A stretch of 34,001 nt of DNA from an uncultured delta proteobacterium (GCA_903904655.1 CAIVDK010000439.1:1-34001); one strand, 5' to 3'; numbered from the stretch's first letter, positions 15,508 to 23,441 are shown. Notes: a model not told the origin generated them from the letters alone. A program made the numbers and translations.

Positions 15508-15804
15508 TTACAATTTCTCAGAAGTAGCTGGCAGAAAGCATCCCGAACCGGAAATATGTTTTCCCCTGGATTGCTTCAAGTCTGCAATAATTTCATCCGC
15601 CGTCCGGTCATCCTCCCATGAGCCGGAGAGTTCAAGCAAAACCTGAGCGGGCATCTTTACGGCCTGCGCCTGCTGCCTTTTCAGGAGATATTCTTTTGTC
15701 ATAAAAAGAATCTGCTGGCTGACAGAGCGGTTTTCCGAACAGGCAAGCGCCTTGATCTGGGCATAATAATCATCGTTCATGCCTTTTATGTGAAGATTCG
15801 CCAT
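15508..15804 (-). CDS. FitA/Arc-like ribbon-helix-helix antitoxin-type protein (orphan)
   Basis: 98 aa; MANLHIKGMNDDYYAQIKALACSENRSVSQQILFMTKEYLL resembles FitA-like plasmid stability antitoxins; no adjacent PIN toxin. Confidence 0.6.
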   Translation of the reverse strand: MANLHIKGMNDDYYAQIKALACSENRSVSQQILFMTKEYLLKRQQAQAVKMPAQVLLELSGSWEDDRTADEIIADLKQSRGKHISGSGCFLPATSEKL

Positions 15805-15857: not shown

Positions 15858-17081
15858 TTACTGAATTCGCAGCCCATTTTCCAGCCGTTGAATTATTGCT
15901 TCTTTGTCTAGTAGTAAACTGGTTTTCTTTGTTTCGAATAAAGGCATCCTTATGATTGGTTTATACTTGCTATCAATTAAAGGTAAAAAATCTCTCAACG
16001 TATCGTACCACGCCCTTTGTTCATCGCGATATGGAGGGTCGTCATCTTTCATTTTAATCCGGTTGCAATAATCGGCATATTCTTCCTTGTCAAAGGCAAT
16101 TGTCAATTCTTTCGGATAATTTTTCAGCGCAACAGCCCTTAATTCAGTAAAATGCCTCACTTCATCAAGCTCAACAATTATCTGTTCTCCTGGTATGTAG
16201 ATATCACAATTTGCGAGTTTCTTCCTGCCTATCTTTATCTTTCTGCCACGATGATTTCCCAACGCTGCATAGATTTTTTTTAAGTAGGGATATGCTTCTT
16301 TTTCAGCATGTCCACTAAGATCGGCAACCAGTCCACTTGGGTATCCCCAGAATACTTTTTCGTAGTGATCCAACAGGTATCGATAAATAAAGTTTTTTTC
16401 TTCATCAACATTCCGGGACAAAGAGTCCTTGTATTTCAAAATTGATATTTCCCCTTTTTTCTCCTCATAAAATTCGATTTCCTTGTCCGACGCCTTTATA
16501 TAATCGAGCACTGAACGGGCAGGTATATCTGTAACTGATGTCGAAATGGCAGTAACATCAATCCTTGCCGTTGGATTAATGCCGGCTATCCATGGTAAAA
16601 AATCACGCAATACATCATTCCATATACTTACAACATTATTTCTCTTGCCTATCGCCTTTTTTTCGCATTTTCCACGGTATTCTTTATGATTGAAGGCAAG
16701 CGGCAGGTCAGAGGGATACATGTCTAGCACCTCTCCCCGCAGACTATTAAAGTGCTGCTTCTCATCAAGCTCAACCACCTGATTGGAACGTCCAAGAAAA
16801 ATATCACAATCCTCCAAATGACCACTATTACCTATTCTGCCTGTTTTAAAAAAATTTTTACTGTTGTCATATTGCAACAGGAAATCGTATATGCGTTTCA
16901 AGTGCTTGAAATACGGTTTGCCCTCATAATCTACAATCCGGGTTGAAATTTCGGGAATTTTATATTCAACCCGGATATCATATCCTTGGCGGTAAAGCGC
17001 AATCCAGATGTTGTTCTTTATGAGCCAATCGTGGTTTGTTGTTTCTTTATTTGCCATTATTTCGCCAAAACCTCTCATCAT
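15858..17081 (-). CDS. Uncharacterised protein with two tandem Vsr/DUF559-like (PD-(D/E)xK superfamily) nuclease-type domains
   Basis: 407 aa; repeated motif CDIFLGRSNQVVELDEKQHFNSLR...YPSDLPLAFNHKEY...LRDFLPWI and CDIYIPGEQIIVELDEVRHFTELR...YPKELTIAFDKEEY...LRDFLPLI. Confidence 0.55.
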   Translation of the reverse strand: MMRGFGEIMANKETTNHDWLIKNNIWIALYRQGYDIRVEYKIPEISTRIVDYEGKPYFKHLKRIYDFLLQYDNSKNFFKTGRIGNSGHLEDCDIFLGRSNQVVELDEKQHFNSLRGEVLDMYPSDLPLAFNHKEYRGKCEKKAIGKRNNVVSIWNDVLRDFLPWIAGINPTARIDVTAISTSVTDIPARSVLDYIKASDKEIEFYEEKKGEISILKYKDSLSRNVDEEKNFIYRYLLDHYEKVFWGYPSGLVADLSGHAEKEAYPYLKKIYAALGNHRGRKIKIGRKKLANCDIYIPGEQIIVELDEVRHFTELRAVALKNYPKELTIAFDKEEYADYCNRIKMKDDDPPYRDEQRAWYDTLRDFLPLIDSKYKPIIRMPLFETKKTSLLLDKEAIIQRLENGLRIQ

Positions 17082-17090
17082 ACAACTTCA

Positions 17091-17897
17091 TTATACAGGC
17101 CTTCTCCGTATTACAGTAGTTCTGGCCTGACCCAATGTCATCACCGGTATTTCAGGTACAATTCCAATCCTGATATCCAATCTATCATTTATCCGTGGCG
17201 ACACTTCACGCACTCGTGCTGTTATATCCTCACCGTTATAAAAGACGGTCCACGGAATTGAGGATTCCCTTCCTCTCCCCATGTTCCATACCGTAATTAC
17301 CATTCTCTGGTTCCTGGAATAATAAGCTCTTTTTCTTTTCATCTCATAGCGCGTCATATAGTCGTGTAGTGGATTAAAAACGACTCTGATATTGCGCCTT
17401 TCAAGTTCACCGTTAAAACCGAATTCATCTCTAAAGTTTCCATTGGATGGCATATAGTTGGCAATGTTACTTTCACCACAAATAGCAACCAGGCCATCGC
17501 CTATAATTCGTCCGGGAATGCTGCGGAAAAATTCTCTTTTCCGTTCATGCGTGTCGCTTGATTTGCCGAAAAATTGCTCCATTATTCGCGGTAGTTCTTC
17601 ACCTTTCAGCCAGACTTCCACAAATTTATTAGGAGTTTTTTTGTTGCCCACCTCAAGAATAACACACCGGACGTTTTTCAGATCACCAAAAATGGTTTGG
17701 TGATTTCTGCGAATCGGAGAATTCTCATCCCATGTAAAAAGCGAATATAGGATAGTGTCACACCCTTCACCATCACATATGGAATGAATCTGTGAAGCAT
17801 GTTCAGCAAAATCCTGATGACCATGTCTATTAGAAAGATTGTAATTATGAGAAACTACGGCCACTTTTTTTACGTTAAAACTCTTTTGTTCCATCAT
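17091..17897 (-). CDS. Nitrilase/carbon-nitrogen hydrolase-like protein
   Basis: 268 aa; GLVAICGES (candidate catalytic Cys), LERRNIRVVFNPLHDYMTRYEMKRKRAYYSRNQRMVITVWNMGRG and TVFYNGEDI follow the nitrilase-fold order. Confidence 0.45.
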   Translation of the reverse strand: MMEQKSFNVKKVAVVSHNYNLSNRHGHQDFAEHASQIHSICDGEGCDTILYSLFTWDENSPIRRNHQTIFGDLKNVRCVILEVGNKKTPNKFVEVWLKGEELPRIMEQFFGKSSDTHERKREFFRSIPGRIIGDGLVAICGESNIANYMPSNGNFRDEFGFNGELERRNIRVVFNPLHDYMTRYEMKRKRAYYSRNQRMVITVWNMGRGRESSIPWTVFYNGEDITARVREVSPRINDRLDIRIGIVPEIPVMTLGQARTTVIRRRPV

Positions 17898-18007
17898 ATA
17901 TAGATCCCTTTCGCTTAGTTTTCTTTCGGATAAAATCTATTCCTGGATCAATCTGAAAGGCCCTCCGATCAGTGAAACCAAATTATTGATGAGGGCGCGC
18001 CACCGTC

Positions 18008-18940
18008 TTACCTTTCCAATAATTTTCTTCCTCCAAATACTTTGATTTTGTCCACAAGATCAAAAGCGGCCGTTTTGATTTGATAATCCTGCCAACGTTG
18101 TTCATATAGGCTTGTTGAAAGCAATGCTACATCCGTGGTTTGACCTTCACCCACCCACTCGTCGAGACCATAGTCATAGCGGATACCGCCCCGCTCCGTT
18201 AGGACATATCGCGCGTGGGGTTTATCTCCTGATGCCTTGATTTTCCATCTAAAGACCTGCAATATCAATCCTTCTGGAATTATCTGAGGGAATTTGCGCA
18301 AACAATCATCTTTCCATTCCGTTGCTCTTTTCTGCTCCTTCAAATCGTCATATTCAACATGAAGTTCTATCCGCAATGGTAAATGTTCTTCAAAGGCAAA
18401 TTCGATAAGATTGGAGAATGTTTTCCGAAAACGGGATTTCATGGGATCGAAATGAGGATCGATGATAAGAATTTCCTTACTGACCTGCAACAACAGCTTG
18501 GCGCAGCAAGCCAATTCATTTGCTTTACGGGAAATTACTTGCTCTTTTGGTACGTTCCAAAGGGGGTGAGATGCGTCGAGTTCGTCTATATTCAGGATAT
18601 TCGGGATTTTTGCCTCGTTGTTTCTGGCAATGACAGCGTGAAAGGGGCGCTGCCGCTGCTGCTCTTCTATGTTGTTCATCCAGTTTTTTTCAGGATCATA
18701 CGGTCTATTCAATTTTGCCATTTTGCTCTTTTCAAGATTTTTTAACTTTATCGCAATACGGGAACGCTCCACATCTCGTAACTGTGTATTTTCACAACAG
18801 GCTGCCATAACCATGCGCGCCCACTTTCCGGGAAAGCGTGAAATCAGCCGTCCGTGCTCGACACCTACTTGATCATCAACATAACGGAAATTTTGCCAGT
18901 TGTTGAGTGCTTCGGGTTCCACAGCATATTCATTGATCAT
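18008..18940 (-). CDS. Uncharacterised PLD-like protein (degenerate HKD motif)
   Basis: 310 aa; KEILIIDPHFDP ... KPHARYVLTERGGIRYDYGLDEWVGEGQTTDVALLSTSLYEQRWQDY resembles the H-x-R-Y-(I/L)-T strand/loop of PLD-like domains. Confidence 0.45.
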   Translation of the reverse strand: MINEYAVEPEALNNWQNFRYVDDQVGVEHGRLISRFPGKWARMVMAACCENTQLRDVERSRIAIKLKNLEKSKMAKLNRPYDPEKNWMNNIEEQQRQRPFHAVIARNNEAKIPNILNIDELDASHPLWNVPKEQVISRKANELACCAKLLLQVSKEILIIDPHFDPMKSRFRKTFSNLIEFAFEEHLPLRIELHVEYDDLKEQKRATEWKDDCLRKFPQIIPEGLILQVFRWKIKASGDKPHARYVLTERGGIRYDYGLDEWVGEGQTTDVALLSTSLYEQRWQDYQIKTAAFDLVDKIKVFGGRKLLER

Positions 18941-18942
18941 GA

Positions 18943-20646
18943 TCAGAAAAGCTCCCTTTCCCGCTCCGTAAAAAAGCCATCAGGCCATTTATCGATAAAA
19001 TCGCCATCCTCGGAGATGCGTAATTCCATCAATTCTGTCCCGTTCTCTGTAGGCTTGGCATAGATGACGGCCACATCCTCTGGGCGTAAGGGCTTTTCAC
19101 CTTCTTCAAGCTCTCCATTGGTCGTGTTTCGGATTAACCTGAGCAATCGCAATATCAAGTGCTCGCTGTGTGTTTCGATGATAAATTGATTGCCATTAAT
19201 GTCGGCCTCATCCATACCTTTTTCCTTTGATGGTATGCGTTCATTAATGCAATTTGCAAAGAAACTTCCCAATTCTGCCTGCAACCTGGGGTGCAAATGA
19301 ATTTCAGGCTGTTCAATGCAAATAATTTTGTGACCGGGATCTATATAACTGGGTAGAATGCCTTGGACAATAATGGGAAGAAGTTGACTAATGCCGAAGC
19401 CGACATCTGTGGGACTGACTTCGCATCCATTTTTTTTATCAATCAAGGCTAAGGTAAATAAATTGCGTTTAAAGCGCTCTACCTTGAGTTCATATCCCAT
19501 TTCGAATTTATCAAACCAGTGATTAACATTTTCGACAATATCCGGTCGTTTAAACAAAATATCTGGCATGTATTTCCCGGATTTACCTACATCTGATCCT
19601 GCATTTCCCGAGAATGAATAAGCCCTACCTGGGAATTCTCTTAGTGGCCCTATATGAATAATTTTTTTAAGATATTGAGTAAGGAGGTCCGTTATTGGTA
19701 GGATAAAATCAATAGGAACAATTTGACGATATTCTTCTTGTCGATTGAACAAACCCGCATAAGCAATCAAAATAGGCAACGAGATATAATTCCAATAATG
19801 TGCTCGTCCTGCCAATCCGTAAGGGAAACATTTTGCAATCTTGATTATCCTGTCATTAGGCGGCATGCCTATTTGTGAAAAATCCTCGAAAGAATTATTA
19901 TAAAATGAACATTCTATTTTTTCTAAATGACGTATTATTTTCTTTCTCGCCTTTGCTTCCTCCTGAGAATATAGTGGTAATGATTCCATCATATTCAAAT
20001 CATCAGAAAAAAAACATTTGCTAATCTCTTTGTCACTTTTTGCATTATTCCCATAGTGTTGAGCATAATAATCCCAATTTGCTTTGATAAATTCTGAATT
20101 GAAGTTTATCGACTCCAAAAAGAGCATTGATTTTGTCAAACAATCTAAACCATCTCTTTTCCGCCCGAATATACGGGAAAACTTTGGAGACAATGTAATA
20201 TTATTATAAACTAATAGCGGCTCCGGATTCCGCAGATAAAACAGGCGTATCGATTTCACAATCACATCACCTGTTTTATCCTTATGAAATGTGAACTCCA
20301 GTGTCATGACCTCATCTTCGCGAATTGGACGTGACTCCCAGCAAATATTAGCAATTTCTGGATCCCATATAAAATTGAATGAAAAAGACATTTTAAATTC
20401 ATTTTTATCATCATGTTTATGAATAAATTCTGAATAGTCACCAAGATCCACTAAGTTTCCCCGTGACAGCAATGGCACTTCATCATTTGTTGATTCCTCC
20501 AATGTCTGTTTGAATAGCAGTAATGATTGGATGAATGAGCTTTTTCCAGAACTGTTCGGTCCATAAAGCAACGTGATAGGTTTCAGAGGAATGCGCTGCA
20601 TCTTGCCAAAGGCCTTGAAATTTTCGATTCCTATTTCAGTGAACAT
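18943..20646 (-). CDS. AAA/ABC-type ATPase with DUF3696-like C-terminus
   Basis: 567 aa; Walker A YGPNSSGKSSFIQSLLLFKQ, signature VSPTDVGFGISQLLPII, Walker B CIEQPEIHLHPRLQAELG, IETHSEHLILRL, C-terminal EDGDFIDKWPDGFFTERERELF. Confidence 0.85.
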   Translation of the reverse strand: MFTEIGIENFKAFGKMQRIPLKPITLLYGPNSSGKSSFIQSLLLFKQTLEESTNDEVPLLSRGNLVDLGDYSEFIHKHDDKNEFKMSFSFNFIWDPEIANICWESRPIREDEVMTLEFTFHKDKTGDVIVKSIRLFYLRNPEPLLVYNNITLSPKFSRIFGRKRDGLDCLTKSMLFLESINFNSEFIKANWDYYAQHYGNNAKSDKEISKCFFSDDLNMMESLPLYSQEEAKARKKIIRHLEKIECSFYNNSFEDFSQIGMPPNDRIIKIAKCFPYGLAGRAHYWNYISLPILIAYAGLFNRQEEYRQIVPIDFILPITDLLTQYLKKIIHIGPLREFPGRAYSFSGNAGSDVGKSGKYMPDILFKRPDIVENVNHWFDKFEMGYELKVERFKRNLFTLALIDKKNGCEVSPTDVGFGISQLLPIIVQGILPSYIDPGHKIICIEQPEIHLHPRLQAELGSFFANCINERIPSKEKGMDEADINGNQFIIETHSEHLILRLLRLIRNTTNGELEEGEKPLRPEDVAVIYAKPTENGTELMELRISEDGDFIDKWPDGFFTERERELF

Positions 20647-20691
20647 ATTTTCTCCTCGATCAGTGTTGCGTTATCAAAGCCCTGTTATAAA

Positions 20692-20706
20692 GCGACTTCT
20701 GTGCCA
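20692..20706 (-). promoter_or_regulatory. Candidate sigma-54 promoter upstream of the ATPase gene
   Basis: Minus strand TGGCAC-AGAAG-TCGC; consensus TGGCAC-N5-TTGC with one mismatch, GG-N10-GC spacing exact, 46 nt upstream of the ATG at 20646. Confidence 0.65.
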
Positions 20707-20723
20707 GGAAACGATTATATTTT

Positions 20724-20751
20724 CAACATATTGTAATTAAACGACATATTG
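20724..20751 (-). repeat. 18-bp-period direct repeat upstream of the sigma-54 promoter (candidate activator site)
   Basis: Plus strand CAACATATTG (20724-20733) and CGACATATTG (20742-20751), 9/10 identical. Confidence 0.45.
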
Positions 20752-20824
20752 CATTGCTTCACTCAAAGCATCGTGTCCTTGGACATATTATAGGTAATAT
20801 TTATTTCGAACATAGTAACATTGG

Positions 20825-21013
20825 TTACTTTTCTCTTCGAAAATTAACAAGCTTATTGTTTATTATTACTTCAACATCAGCCGCAAATTTATCATCGTCG
20901 TCCAGCCTGGGCATTGTTTGCAGGAAGATTTTCAATTCCCTCAAGGTTCGCGTGCCGACGGCTTTTTCCACCAGCCCAATTGTTGCCGCCGGTTTTCCAC
21001 ATCTCATGATCAT
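20825..21013 (-). CDS. Small hypothetical protein
   Basis: MIMRCGKPAATIGLVEKAVGTRTLRELKIFLQTMPRLDDDDKFAADVEVIINNKLVNFRREK; AAAGGAG a few nt upstream of the start. Confidence 0.5.
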   Translation of the reverse strand: MIMRCGKPAATIGLVEKAVGTRTLRELKIFLQTMPRLDDDDKFAADVEVIINNKLVNFRREK

Positions 21014-21104: not shown

Positions 21105-21455
21105 TTATCTGTATTCACTTGCTTGTTCAGATACTCGATGTCTCCAATAGTCAGGAGTACGGTGAAGATGCATCACGGCTGTCACAATGATTTATTCTTC
21201 CTCATCACAGTATAGAATTCCATAGTGGAAACGGCCGACCAGAATTCTTCTGATTCCATTTCGCTGGAGGGGATAAGACATAGGGTTAATAGAGATCGCG
21301 TCCGTTCCTTTCTTGATCATGGATAAGAACTCCCGCCCCAATCCTTGTCTATGTTTATCATAGAAGATGGCCGCTTCGTTCATTTCCTGCTCTGCTTGGG
21401 AAGAAAAATGACTTTCTTCATCGCATTTTAGAGAACGCATCACTGTAGACATCAT
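21105..21455 (-). pseudogene. RelE/ParE-family toxin interrupted by an in-frame TAA
   Basis: Track ORF 21192..21455 ends ...RILVGRFHYGILYCDEEE*; the same frame continues IIVTAVMHLHRTPDYWRHRVSEQASEYR*, the expected ParE C-terminus. Confidence 0.7.
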
Positions 21456-21648
21456 CGGCAGGTCTGCCCTGGATTTTACCTTGCCGGTATTCCTGATAGC
21501 GCCTTTCGGCTTCCTGAAGCCACAACTCTTCTGCTTCGGGGTCGTCGTAATTATCGAGACTTTTTATCAGGTCCATCGCCAGCCTTGCACGTTCCTCGGC
21601 GGAGAGAGTCAAAGCAGCTTCTTCTATTTTTCCCAAATTGGTACTCAT
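21418..21648 (-). CDS. Addiction-module antitoxin (RHH-like/TIGR02574-type)
   Basis: 76 aa; EEAALTLSAEERARLAMDLIKSLD...EAEELWLQEAERRYQEYRQGKIQGRPADDVYSDAFSKMR; overlaps the toxin frame. Confidence 0.8.
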   Translation of the reverse strand: MSTNLGKIEEAALTLSAEERARLAMDLIKSLDNYDDPEAEELWLQEAERRYQEYRQGKIQGRPADDVYSDAFSKMR

Positions 21649-21875: not shown

Positions 21876-23441
21876 CTATATCCCGAATTTTTCTTTCGCG
21901 CGTTTGCGGAACGTGTGGGGTTTGATGTTGAGGAGTCGGGCGGCGGCTTCCCGGTTGCCGTCTTTAACTTTAACAGCTTCTTCGTAATATGCTTTTTCAA
22001 GATTGTGCAGGTGCACGTCCAGTTTCAGACCGTCAGGGGGGATGGTGACTATCGGAGCATTTGGTTGTTCTGTGTTGCCGGACGATTTCGGAAAAGAGGA
22101 ACCCGGTGAAGTGATTTCTGGCGGTAAATCGTTTTCTTTGATGGCGCTGCCCTTGGAGAGGACAAAGGCCCTCTCGACGGCATTTTCCAATTCCCGGATG
22201 TTTCCCGGCCACGAATAGGAAAGGATGCGGCGCATTGCTTCCCGGCTGAGCTGCTTCTGCTGCCGGTAGCGGGAGTTATGGCGGTCAAGAAAGTATTCCA
22301 CAAGAAGGGTAATATCCTCCGTGCGCTCCCGCAGGGCGGGCATGGGGATTTCAATCACCTTGAGCCGGTAGTAAAGGTCTTCCCGGAATTTTCCTTCGCT
22401 GATAAAAGCGGCCAGATTCCGGTTGGTGGCGGCAATAATCCGGACATCGGCGCGAATGGTTTTTGCGCCGCCCAGCCGCGTGATTGTCTTATCCTGCAAG
22501 ACGCGCAGGATTTTGGCCTGGGCGGGCAGAGGCATATCACCAATTTCATCTAAGAAAATTGTGCCCCCGTCCGCCAGTTCGAATTTTCCCTTCTTCTGCT
22601 GTGTGGCCCCGGTGAAGGCGCCTTTCTCATGGCCGAAAAGTTCGCTTTCCACAAGGGTCTCCGGAATGGCGGCGCAATTTACGACGATCAGGGGTTCCTC
22701 TTTCCTTGTGCTGTTGTAATGGATGGCCTTAGCCACAAGTTCCTTGCCCGTGCCCGTTTCGCCTTGGATCAGAACCGCCGAGTCATACAGGGAGGCCGCC
22801 CGGACAGTGTCCATAACCCGCGTCAGCGCCGGACTTTTGCCGATCATTTGAAGGCCGGAAAATTCCCGGATGAGTTCATCTCGCTCTGCCTCTAGTTTTT
22901 CCTTGCGCAGACAGGTCGCGGCAATGTCCAGTGTTTCCGGCGACGGCGGCGTGATCCTGGGAAAGGTCGCCAGTGATAGACTTATTTCGGAGACAGCTTT
23001 CTGCTGCGGTCTCAGGAAACGAGGCGGTGTGATCTTGAGGAGCGTGGCGGGCACAATGCCTGATTGGGCCATGAGGAACCAAACGGTCTGCATCTGCGGC
23101 GTCCCGGATGCCGTGGCAATAAAACAGGCGGGCTGCCGATCGCGATACTCCTCCAGGATTTCCCGGCACCTTGCGCTCATGTTCAGGAAAAGGGCTTCGT
23201 AATCCGTCGGGTCAGGGATATCGATATTGTGTATCCGTGTGCGGACATCCCCCGCTCTCTTGAAAATCTCCTGCTGGAGCCGCTGGGCGTTGGGAAGGCT
23301 GTTCGGGTTGGTGAAGATATGGACGGCATGAAAAGACCGCTCCGTAAGCAAAGTGAGAACCGGCCCGTCGGTAAAGACGCCTTTCACAGCTTCGGGATTG
23401 TAAGGATCACGGTTGCCGGCAAAAGTAAAAAGAATATCCAT
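21876..23441 (-). CDS. Sigma-54-dependent transcriptional activator with N-terminal CARF-like (RtcR-type) sensor
   Basis: 521 aa; N-term ILFTFAGNRDPY...GPVLTLL...FIATASGTPQMQTVWFLM; AAA+ IQGETGTGKELVAKAIH, GAFTGA, IRELENAVERA; C-terminal Fis-type HTH. Confidence 0.85.
   Translation of the reverse strand: MDILFTFAGNRDPYNPEAVKGVFTDGPVLTLLTERSFHAVHIFTNPNSLPNAQRLQQEIFKRAGDVRTRIHNIDIPDPTDYEALFLNMSARCREILEEYRDRQPACFIATASGTPQMQTVWFLMAQSGIVPATLLKITPPRFLRPQQKAVSEISLSLATFPRITPPSPETLDIAATCLRKEKLEAERDELIREFSGLQMIGKSPALTRVMDTVRAASLYDSAVLIQGETGTGKELVAKAIHYNSTRKEEPLIVVNCAAIPETLVESELFGHEKGAFTGATQQKKGKFELADGGTIFLDEIGDMPLPAQAKILRVLQDKTITRLGGAKTIRADVRIIAATNRNLAAFISEGKFREDLYYRLKVIEIPMPALRERTEDITLLVEYFLDRHNSRYRQQKQLSREAMRRILSYSWPGNIRELENAVERAFVLSKGSAIKENDLPPEITSPGSSFPKSSGNTEQPNAPIVTIPPDGLKLDVHLHNLEKAYYEEAVKVKDGNREAAARLLNIKPHTFRKRAKEKFGI

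Follow-up and report, generated by a model that had tools for sequence, protein, structure and literature searches.

Two gene pairs behind a predicted sigma-54 switch: a putative antiviral operon in an uncultured delta proteobacterium

Does a compact run of four genes in an uncultured delta proteobacterium represent one undescribed defence system, or do separate gene sets share a single site? This question is raised by a DNA stretch of 34,001 nucleotides (GCA_903904655.1 CAIVDK010000439.1:1-34001; the whole 34-kb stretch is referred to as the window), in which four minus-strand open reading frames (ORFs), g1 to g4, are separated by intergenic gaps of 2 nucleotides (nt) (g1/g2), 110 nt (g2/g3) and 9 nt (g3/g4). 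An earlier note on this DNA proposed that they form a single system of a DUF3696 ATPase, a PLD-like protein, a nitrilase-like protein and a tandem nuclease-like protein. The ORF positions and spacings given there proved exact, and family matches, homologues and the internal repeat of g4 indicate genuine genes. However, the four genes are two separate modules, g1-g2 and g3-g4, and not one conserved four-gene system. Labels beginning with G and L denote other genomes and DNA stretches, respectively.

Two gene pairs and their distribution

Across 8 genomes, 4 plasmids and 4 viral contigs, as well as in the window, each g2 gene examined is directly preceded by g1, with an overlap or a gap of a few nucleotides. 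The genomes belong to the same phylum as the window; the g1 gene of G254 reads as truncated. The pair follows hsdS in G221, G268 and G254, on three plasmids (Methylocella, Azotobacter and Vibrio) and on the four viral contigs. In G367, an Hhe gene (L019 9473-15277; PDLC02194, E=0, 1656 bits) is located downstream of g1-g2, and the large ORF downstream of the pair in G407 (L020 9788-15565) is similar to it. No further partner was recognised in the other g1-g2 loci. The g1-g2 genes are a portable, defence-associated pair. On the Methylocella plasmid (L004 9041-12332), a SIR2-family gene and a gene of HerA type (DUF87) come after g1-g2, and the place of the CARF activator described below is taken by a WYL gene.

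The recurrent position behind hsdS favours an alternative in which g1-g2 is an accessory of Type I restriction-modification (R-M) that modulates or backs up restriction, the window copy having been left after the loss of hsdRMS and g3-g4 having been acquired later; the same activator family also precedes R-M loci. Against this, no R-M genes accompany the activator and g1-g2 in the stretches read of G344 and G424, and a large Hhe-type helicase takes their place in G367 and G407; R-M is thus not required by the pair. In the window, where every ORF between the activator and the Fe-ADH gene is accounted for, that interval holds no hsdR, hsdM or hsdS, and there is no Hhe gene within the window. We regard the accessory explanation as rather improbable.

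The distribution of the second pair is much more restricted. Two further g3 genes were found, one in a deltaproteobacterial metagenome-assembled genome (MAG; L008/L025, 59%, at a contig end) and one in a Chloroflexi MAG (L026, 42-43%), and g3 and g4 are adjacent in all three known g3 loci. In the Chloroflexi locus they are divergently transcribed, and g1-g2 is lacking. The class and phylum samples contained no further g3 locus beyond G088, whose contig matches the L008/L025 contig; viral contigs contained no g3, and plasmids neither g3 nor g4. Since g4 adjoins every g3, and does so elsewhere without g1-g2, g3-g4 is a very rare pair of its own, independent of g1-g2.

How, then, does the proposal of a single integrated system fare, with a sensing ATPase and g2, g3 and g4 as its indispensable partners? 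It accords with the four co-directional genes, the short gaps and the single predicted promoter, and no terminator-like site was found on the operon strand in the 110-nt g2-g3 gap. Nevertheless, g1-g2 occurs without g3-g4 in every other locus found, g3-g4 occurs without g1-g2 in Chloroflexi, and g3 has no relative in the 394 other genomes of the phylum sample. The co-occurrence of the four genes, on which the earlier note had made its proposal depend, is not conserved in other genomes, and we consider the integrated system very unlikely.

Table 1 Coordinates of the features discussed (window positions)
Feature	Position	Strand	Remarks
g1	18943-20646	minus	567 aa; ORF listing
g2	18008-18940	minus	310 aa; ORF listing
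g3	17091-17897	minus	268 aa; ORF listing
g4	15858-17081	minus	407 aa; ORF listing
RtcR/PspF2-type activator	21876-23441	minus	CARF-like N-terminus, sigma-54-interacting AAA+, Fis-type HTH
Predicted sigma-54 -24/-12 promoter	20691-20706	minus	TGGCACAGAAGTCGCT; 44 bp 5' of g1 start
Unstab_antitox antitoxin	21418-21648	minus	PF09720, E=1.8e-17
ParE-like toxin ORF	21192-21455	minus	overlaps antitoxin; assigned by eye, without Pfam match
Lone RHH-type ORF	15508-15804		weak matches

Predicted nature of the four proteins

The g1 product is an AAA_15/AAA_21 ATPase with DUF3696 at the C-terminus (Pfam), in agreement with the initial assignment. Its Walker A motif is GPNSSGKS, and IEQPE occupies the Walker-B/catalytic position. 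Homologues have 23-40% identity; an alignment of 11 proteins shows no variation in the Walker A residues or in E445-Q446-P447-E448. ABC/OLD-type ATPases usually carry a catalytic Glu at the position held by Q446; given this invariance, Gln stands at the usual catalytic-Glu position of g1-type ATPases. No TOPRIM domain was matched in g1, and comparison of its sequence with structures returned a weak match to an OLD-family structure and nothing else.

The closest defence models to g1 in PADLOC are NsnB of Menshen (NsnA-NsnB-NsnC; PDLC03878, residues 1-566, E=7.3e-58) and the candidates PDC-M55A and HEC-03B, which belong to the same ATPase family (E=1e-44 and 3e-44). In Menshen, the ATPase is accompanied by a DUF262 protein and a predicted OLD nuclease (PMC10952713), whereas g1 is paired with a PLD-like protein; NsnA had no match in the window's genome, and g2-g4 match neither the NsnA and NsnC models of PADLOC nor Pfam DUF262. 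Identity with Menshen was rejected because the partner genes are absent. PDC-M55A and HEC-03B differ in that g2 matches no PADLOC model.

PADLOC, NCBIfam, Pfam and PHROGs contained no family match for g2 or g3, and no PADLOC model matched the g2 homologues except for one weak AbiEi match in one member. Profiles of g2, g3 and g4 searched against PDB sequences (hmmsearch) likewise returned no significant relative. In an alignment of 13 proteins (g2 and 12 homologues, 20-45% identity), H242, R244, D161 and R138 are invariant. The core H-x-R-x4-[D/E] (H242, R244, E249) replaces the HxKx4D motif of the PLD superfamily: H-x-R occurs in all 13 proteins, and D or E occupies the HKD Asp position in 10 of them. 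When the g2 profile was compared with PLDc_2 proteins by hhalign, H242 was placed on the HKD His with a score of 23.9 (E=0.0096, probability 4%), which was reached by none of 100 column shuffles. Because this probability is low and the AlphaFold2 (AF2) model of g2 is poor (pLDDT 42.9, below use for a fold search), the PLD-like assignment suggested earlier appears likely, short of proof.

For g3, the AF2 model (pLDDT 71.9, pTM 0.78) was compared with the PDB by Foldseek. The top 27 matches all belong to the nitrilase superfamily (best E 6.9e-5, TM about 0.4-0.5), as do all 20 matches at E <= 0.001; at the level of the predicted model, these matches support a nitrilase-superfamily fold, as had been suspected. 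A comparison with one nitrilase by hhalign, for which the g3 profile was shallow, gave no match. In the alignment of the three g3 sequences, Cys140 in CGExN is conserved, and Lys112 is replaced by Arg in L026. A metabolic nitrilase operon was also considered and rejected on gene context. A precedent for a nitrilase-fold antiphage effector exists in DRT1, in which a reverse transcriptase carries a nitrilase effector domain (PMC13275509). The g3 protein differs from it in that it stands alone, without a reverse transcriptase, is paired with a nuclease-like protein and shows, by eye, no Glu at the place expected for that of the triad.

The g4 protein matches DUF7255, a family without an assigned function in Pfam, in two stretches (PF23913, E=1e-12), and its internal duplication score of 158, compared with a shuffled maximum of 59, indicates a true tandem repeat. 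The C-terminal copy carries D-(x)n-VELDE-xxHF and RDEQRAxYD, the second of which is lacking in the N-terminal copy, and it has D-(x)n-ExDE-xxHF and YRDEQRAxYD in common with two relatives. When compared with the D...ExD motif of Vsr/DUF559-type PD-(D/E)xK nucleases, D293, E304, D306, E307 and H310 are invariant, on the basis of three sequences. Repeat and motif together support the reading of g4 as a tandem DUF7255, Vsr/DUF559-like nuclease-like protein. In the g4 relative of the deltaproteobacterial MAG (L008 16726-17565), the N-terminal 85 residues differ; they are not a first nuclease copy and have no Pfam match.

Control layer and island

Another important question is how such an operon might be controlled. 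The functional unit also takes in two elements that the earlier note did not include, a CARF sigma-54 activator, which is the next substantial gene upstream of the operon, and a -24/-12 site (Table 1). The activator matches PADLOC model PDLC01995 (RtcR_PspF2, E=3.3e-138, residues 2-516) and Pfam Sigma54_activat (1e-73), RtcR (1e-8) and HTH_8; it has the three-domain architecture of RtcR/PspF2 activators, and the -24/-12 promoter and RpoN, which is encoded in the window's genome, agree with this class at the sequence level. Scored with the literature -24/-12 consensus and preset weights, TGGCACAGAAGTCGCT is the top-scoring site of the whole window on both strands, with one mismatch to TGGCACN5TTGCW. 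Similar promoter placement was found in 12 other activator loci, and sigma-54 sites are enriched on the operon strand downstream of the activator (Fisher p=2.2e-9 across the 13 loci, an optimistic value because these are partly related; opposite strand, 0.97). Sigma-54 control of the operon is thus predicted from the placement of promoter and activator. Short palindromes, AGTAACCAATGTTACT and TGTCCAAGGACA, lie at 20770-20830, 78-122 bp 5' of the -24 element (TGTCCAAGGACA at 78 bp), and are candidate activator-binding sites.

A sigma-54 activator is located upstream of a g1-g2 or R-M-g1-g2 operon in G344, G367, G407, G424, G268, G254 and G221 and on the Vibrio and Azotobacter plasmids; the Deinococcus stretch shows no such activator. 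The class was assigned by PADLOC for the window, G221 and Vibrio (RtcR_PspF2, E<1e-190 in the latter two) and by sequence similarity, position or record annotation for the other loci. In G168, G194 and G297, a similar activator stands before R-M genes, and the stretches read there show no g2. In G367, Hhe is thereby placed behind the same activator type as the window operon. The activator gene has a GC content of 0.55 in the window, compared with 0.38-0.44 for g1-g4, and it is about 8-17 points richer than g1-g2 in most loci (L017, L019, L020 and L021 compared). This consistent difference suggests that activator and cargo may differ in origin.

CARF-NtrC proteins are often found near R-M systems, and sigma-54 activation on infection has been proposed for them (Makarova et al., PMC4012209); RtcR-type superoperons have also been described in CoCoNuT (PMC11090510). 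Those activators resemble the present one in their CARF-AAA+-HTH architecture and their position upstream of co-directional defence genes. The control predicted in these two papers is that of R-M or CoCoNuT genes, whereas here the constant cargo is g1-g2 and the promoter has been located across loci. No CoCoNuT genes were recognised in the window. Hhe and Type I R-M, found under the same activator class beside g1-g2, differ in that neither gene set is present in the window.

Could the activator respond to RNA damage instead, as RtcR does, with g2-g4 serving as repair or turnover enzymes of a stress or RNA-repair operon? RtcR, which shares this architecture, is reported to control RNA repair (PMC7790460, PMC9650030). 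However, the loci read have no recognisable rtcA or rtcB, their neighbouring genes belong to R-M, Hhe, SIR2-HerA and toxin-antitoxin (TA) systems, and the island is mobile, AT-rich and variably present; we see only a slim chance that this explanation is correct.

The mobility of the island is indicated by its surroundings. The GC content of the island genes is 0.38-0.44, compared with 0.48-0.52 in flanking genes. In four congeners (G079, G119, G007 and G124), the Fe-ADH gene adjoins glyQ with no island genes between them, and we therefore infer a mobile island at a fixed site; the four ORFs occupy an AT-rich island with presence/absence at one chromosomal site. What had been described as toxin-antitoxin remnants corresponds to a PF09720 antitoxin overlapping a ParE-like ORF, a pair that sits at 21192-21648 between the activator gene and the operon, and a lone RHH-type ORF.

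Two further congeners appear to preserve traces of cargo turnover. The G032 assembly retains the activator (95%), the TA pair and, up to a contig break, residues 1-146 of g1 (98.6%); across its contigs (L131/L132 = C49, C67), the match ends inside g1 at window position 20213 and resumes at the end of g4, at 15913. The remaining matching DNA comprises the last few dozen bases of g4 and the flank, and most of the operon is missing from the assembly. Beyond the match, the G032 contig ends bear unrelated sequence, which in one case may be the beginning of a transposase gene. G051 keeps the -24/-12 region (TGGTACAGAAGTCGCT) in front of what remains of a disrupted, different ATPase gene of the g1 type (about 67% nucleotide identity). 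Two G051 contig ends (L134 = C60, 1-485; L133 = C23, 1-600) both contain TTATTCCGGACAGTAGTGACA and share about 9 bp corresponding to window 20726-20734, which suggests an insertion sequence just upstream of the promoter. Taken together, the G032 and G051 remnants suggest that the site seems to swap and shed its cargo behind a retained promoter.

The favoured explanation and its weight

The explanation that we favour, with some confidence, is an infection-inducible antiviral operon of two modules, in which an ATPase-gated PLD-like effector is combined with the rare nitrilase-fold/nuclease pair. The CARF domain of the activator would bind a ligand that arises from infection or damage, probably a nucleotide or an RNA end, and the activator would then open the -24/-12 promoter just 5' of g1. 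Thus, g1-g2 would be made during infection, and g3-g4 too, by probable read-through of the 110-nt gap. The ABC/OLD-type ATPase g1 would sense or gate g2, which may act on nucleic acid, and this pair may work by itself or supplement Type I R-M or Hhe. The g3 protein, perhaps catalytically altered, would act as a sensor or regulator of g4, the tandem DUF7255 nuclease, which would cut nucleic acid (DNA). In agreement with the earlier note, this is probably a defence locus in which an ATPase is coupled to candidate effectors; the Type I R-M and Hhe neighbours of g1-g2 and the upstream activator speak for the favoured explanation.

Several points weigh against this explanation. Canonical catalytic residues seem to have changed in g1, which has Q in place of the catalytic Glu, and in g2 (K to R), and in g3 no triad Glu was found by eye at the expected place after the second strand in the three-sequence alignment; some parts may therefore not be enzymes of the expected kind. 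The model of g2 is poor. The -12 element reads TCGCT and not TTGCW, the TA pair lies between the activator and the promoter, and the enrichment test draws on partly related loci. The g3-g4 pair rests on three loci, one of which is cut off by a contig end and has stops immediately upstream, and the window is the sole locus in which both pairs were seen. No phage record holds g2 or g4. Finally, all of the evidence is computational.

A bolder version is that g3-g4 is an undescribed two-gene defence system, in which an altered-site nitrilase-fold protein licenses a tandem DUF7255 nuclease, beside an undescribed ATPase/H-x-R PLD-like pair under the CARF sigma-54 switch; we offer it tentatively, as a possibility that we would not expect to hold in full. 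The libraries and open-access literature searched contain no named system covering all four genes, as the earlier note had supposed: PADLOC and NCBIfam gave nothing for g2 and g3, weak matches for g4 and a family-level ATPase for g1. An earlier description elsewhere is possible.

The portable ATPase/PLD-like pair can now be told apart from the rare nitrilase-fold/nuclease pair, giving two candidate effector modules, neither of them a named system in the libraries searched. Over earlier work, the recurrent ATPase/PLD-like cargo, the promoter positions and the nitrilase-fold/DUF7255 pair are added. For the R-M-associated CARF sigma-54 activators, noted in 2014 (PMC4012209), the predicted promoter positions in 13 loci and the recurrent g1-g2 cargo make the switch directly testable by a reporter.

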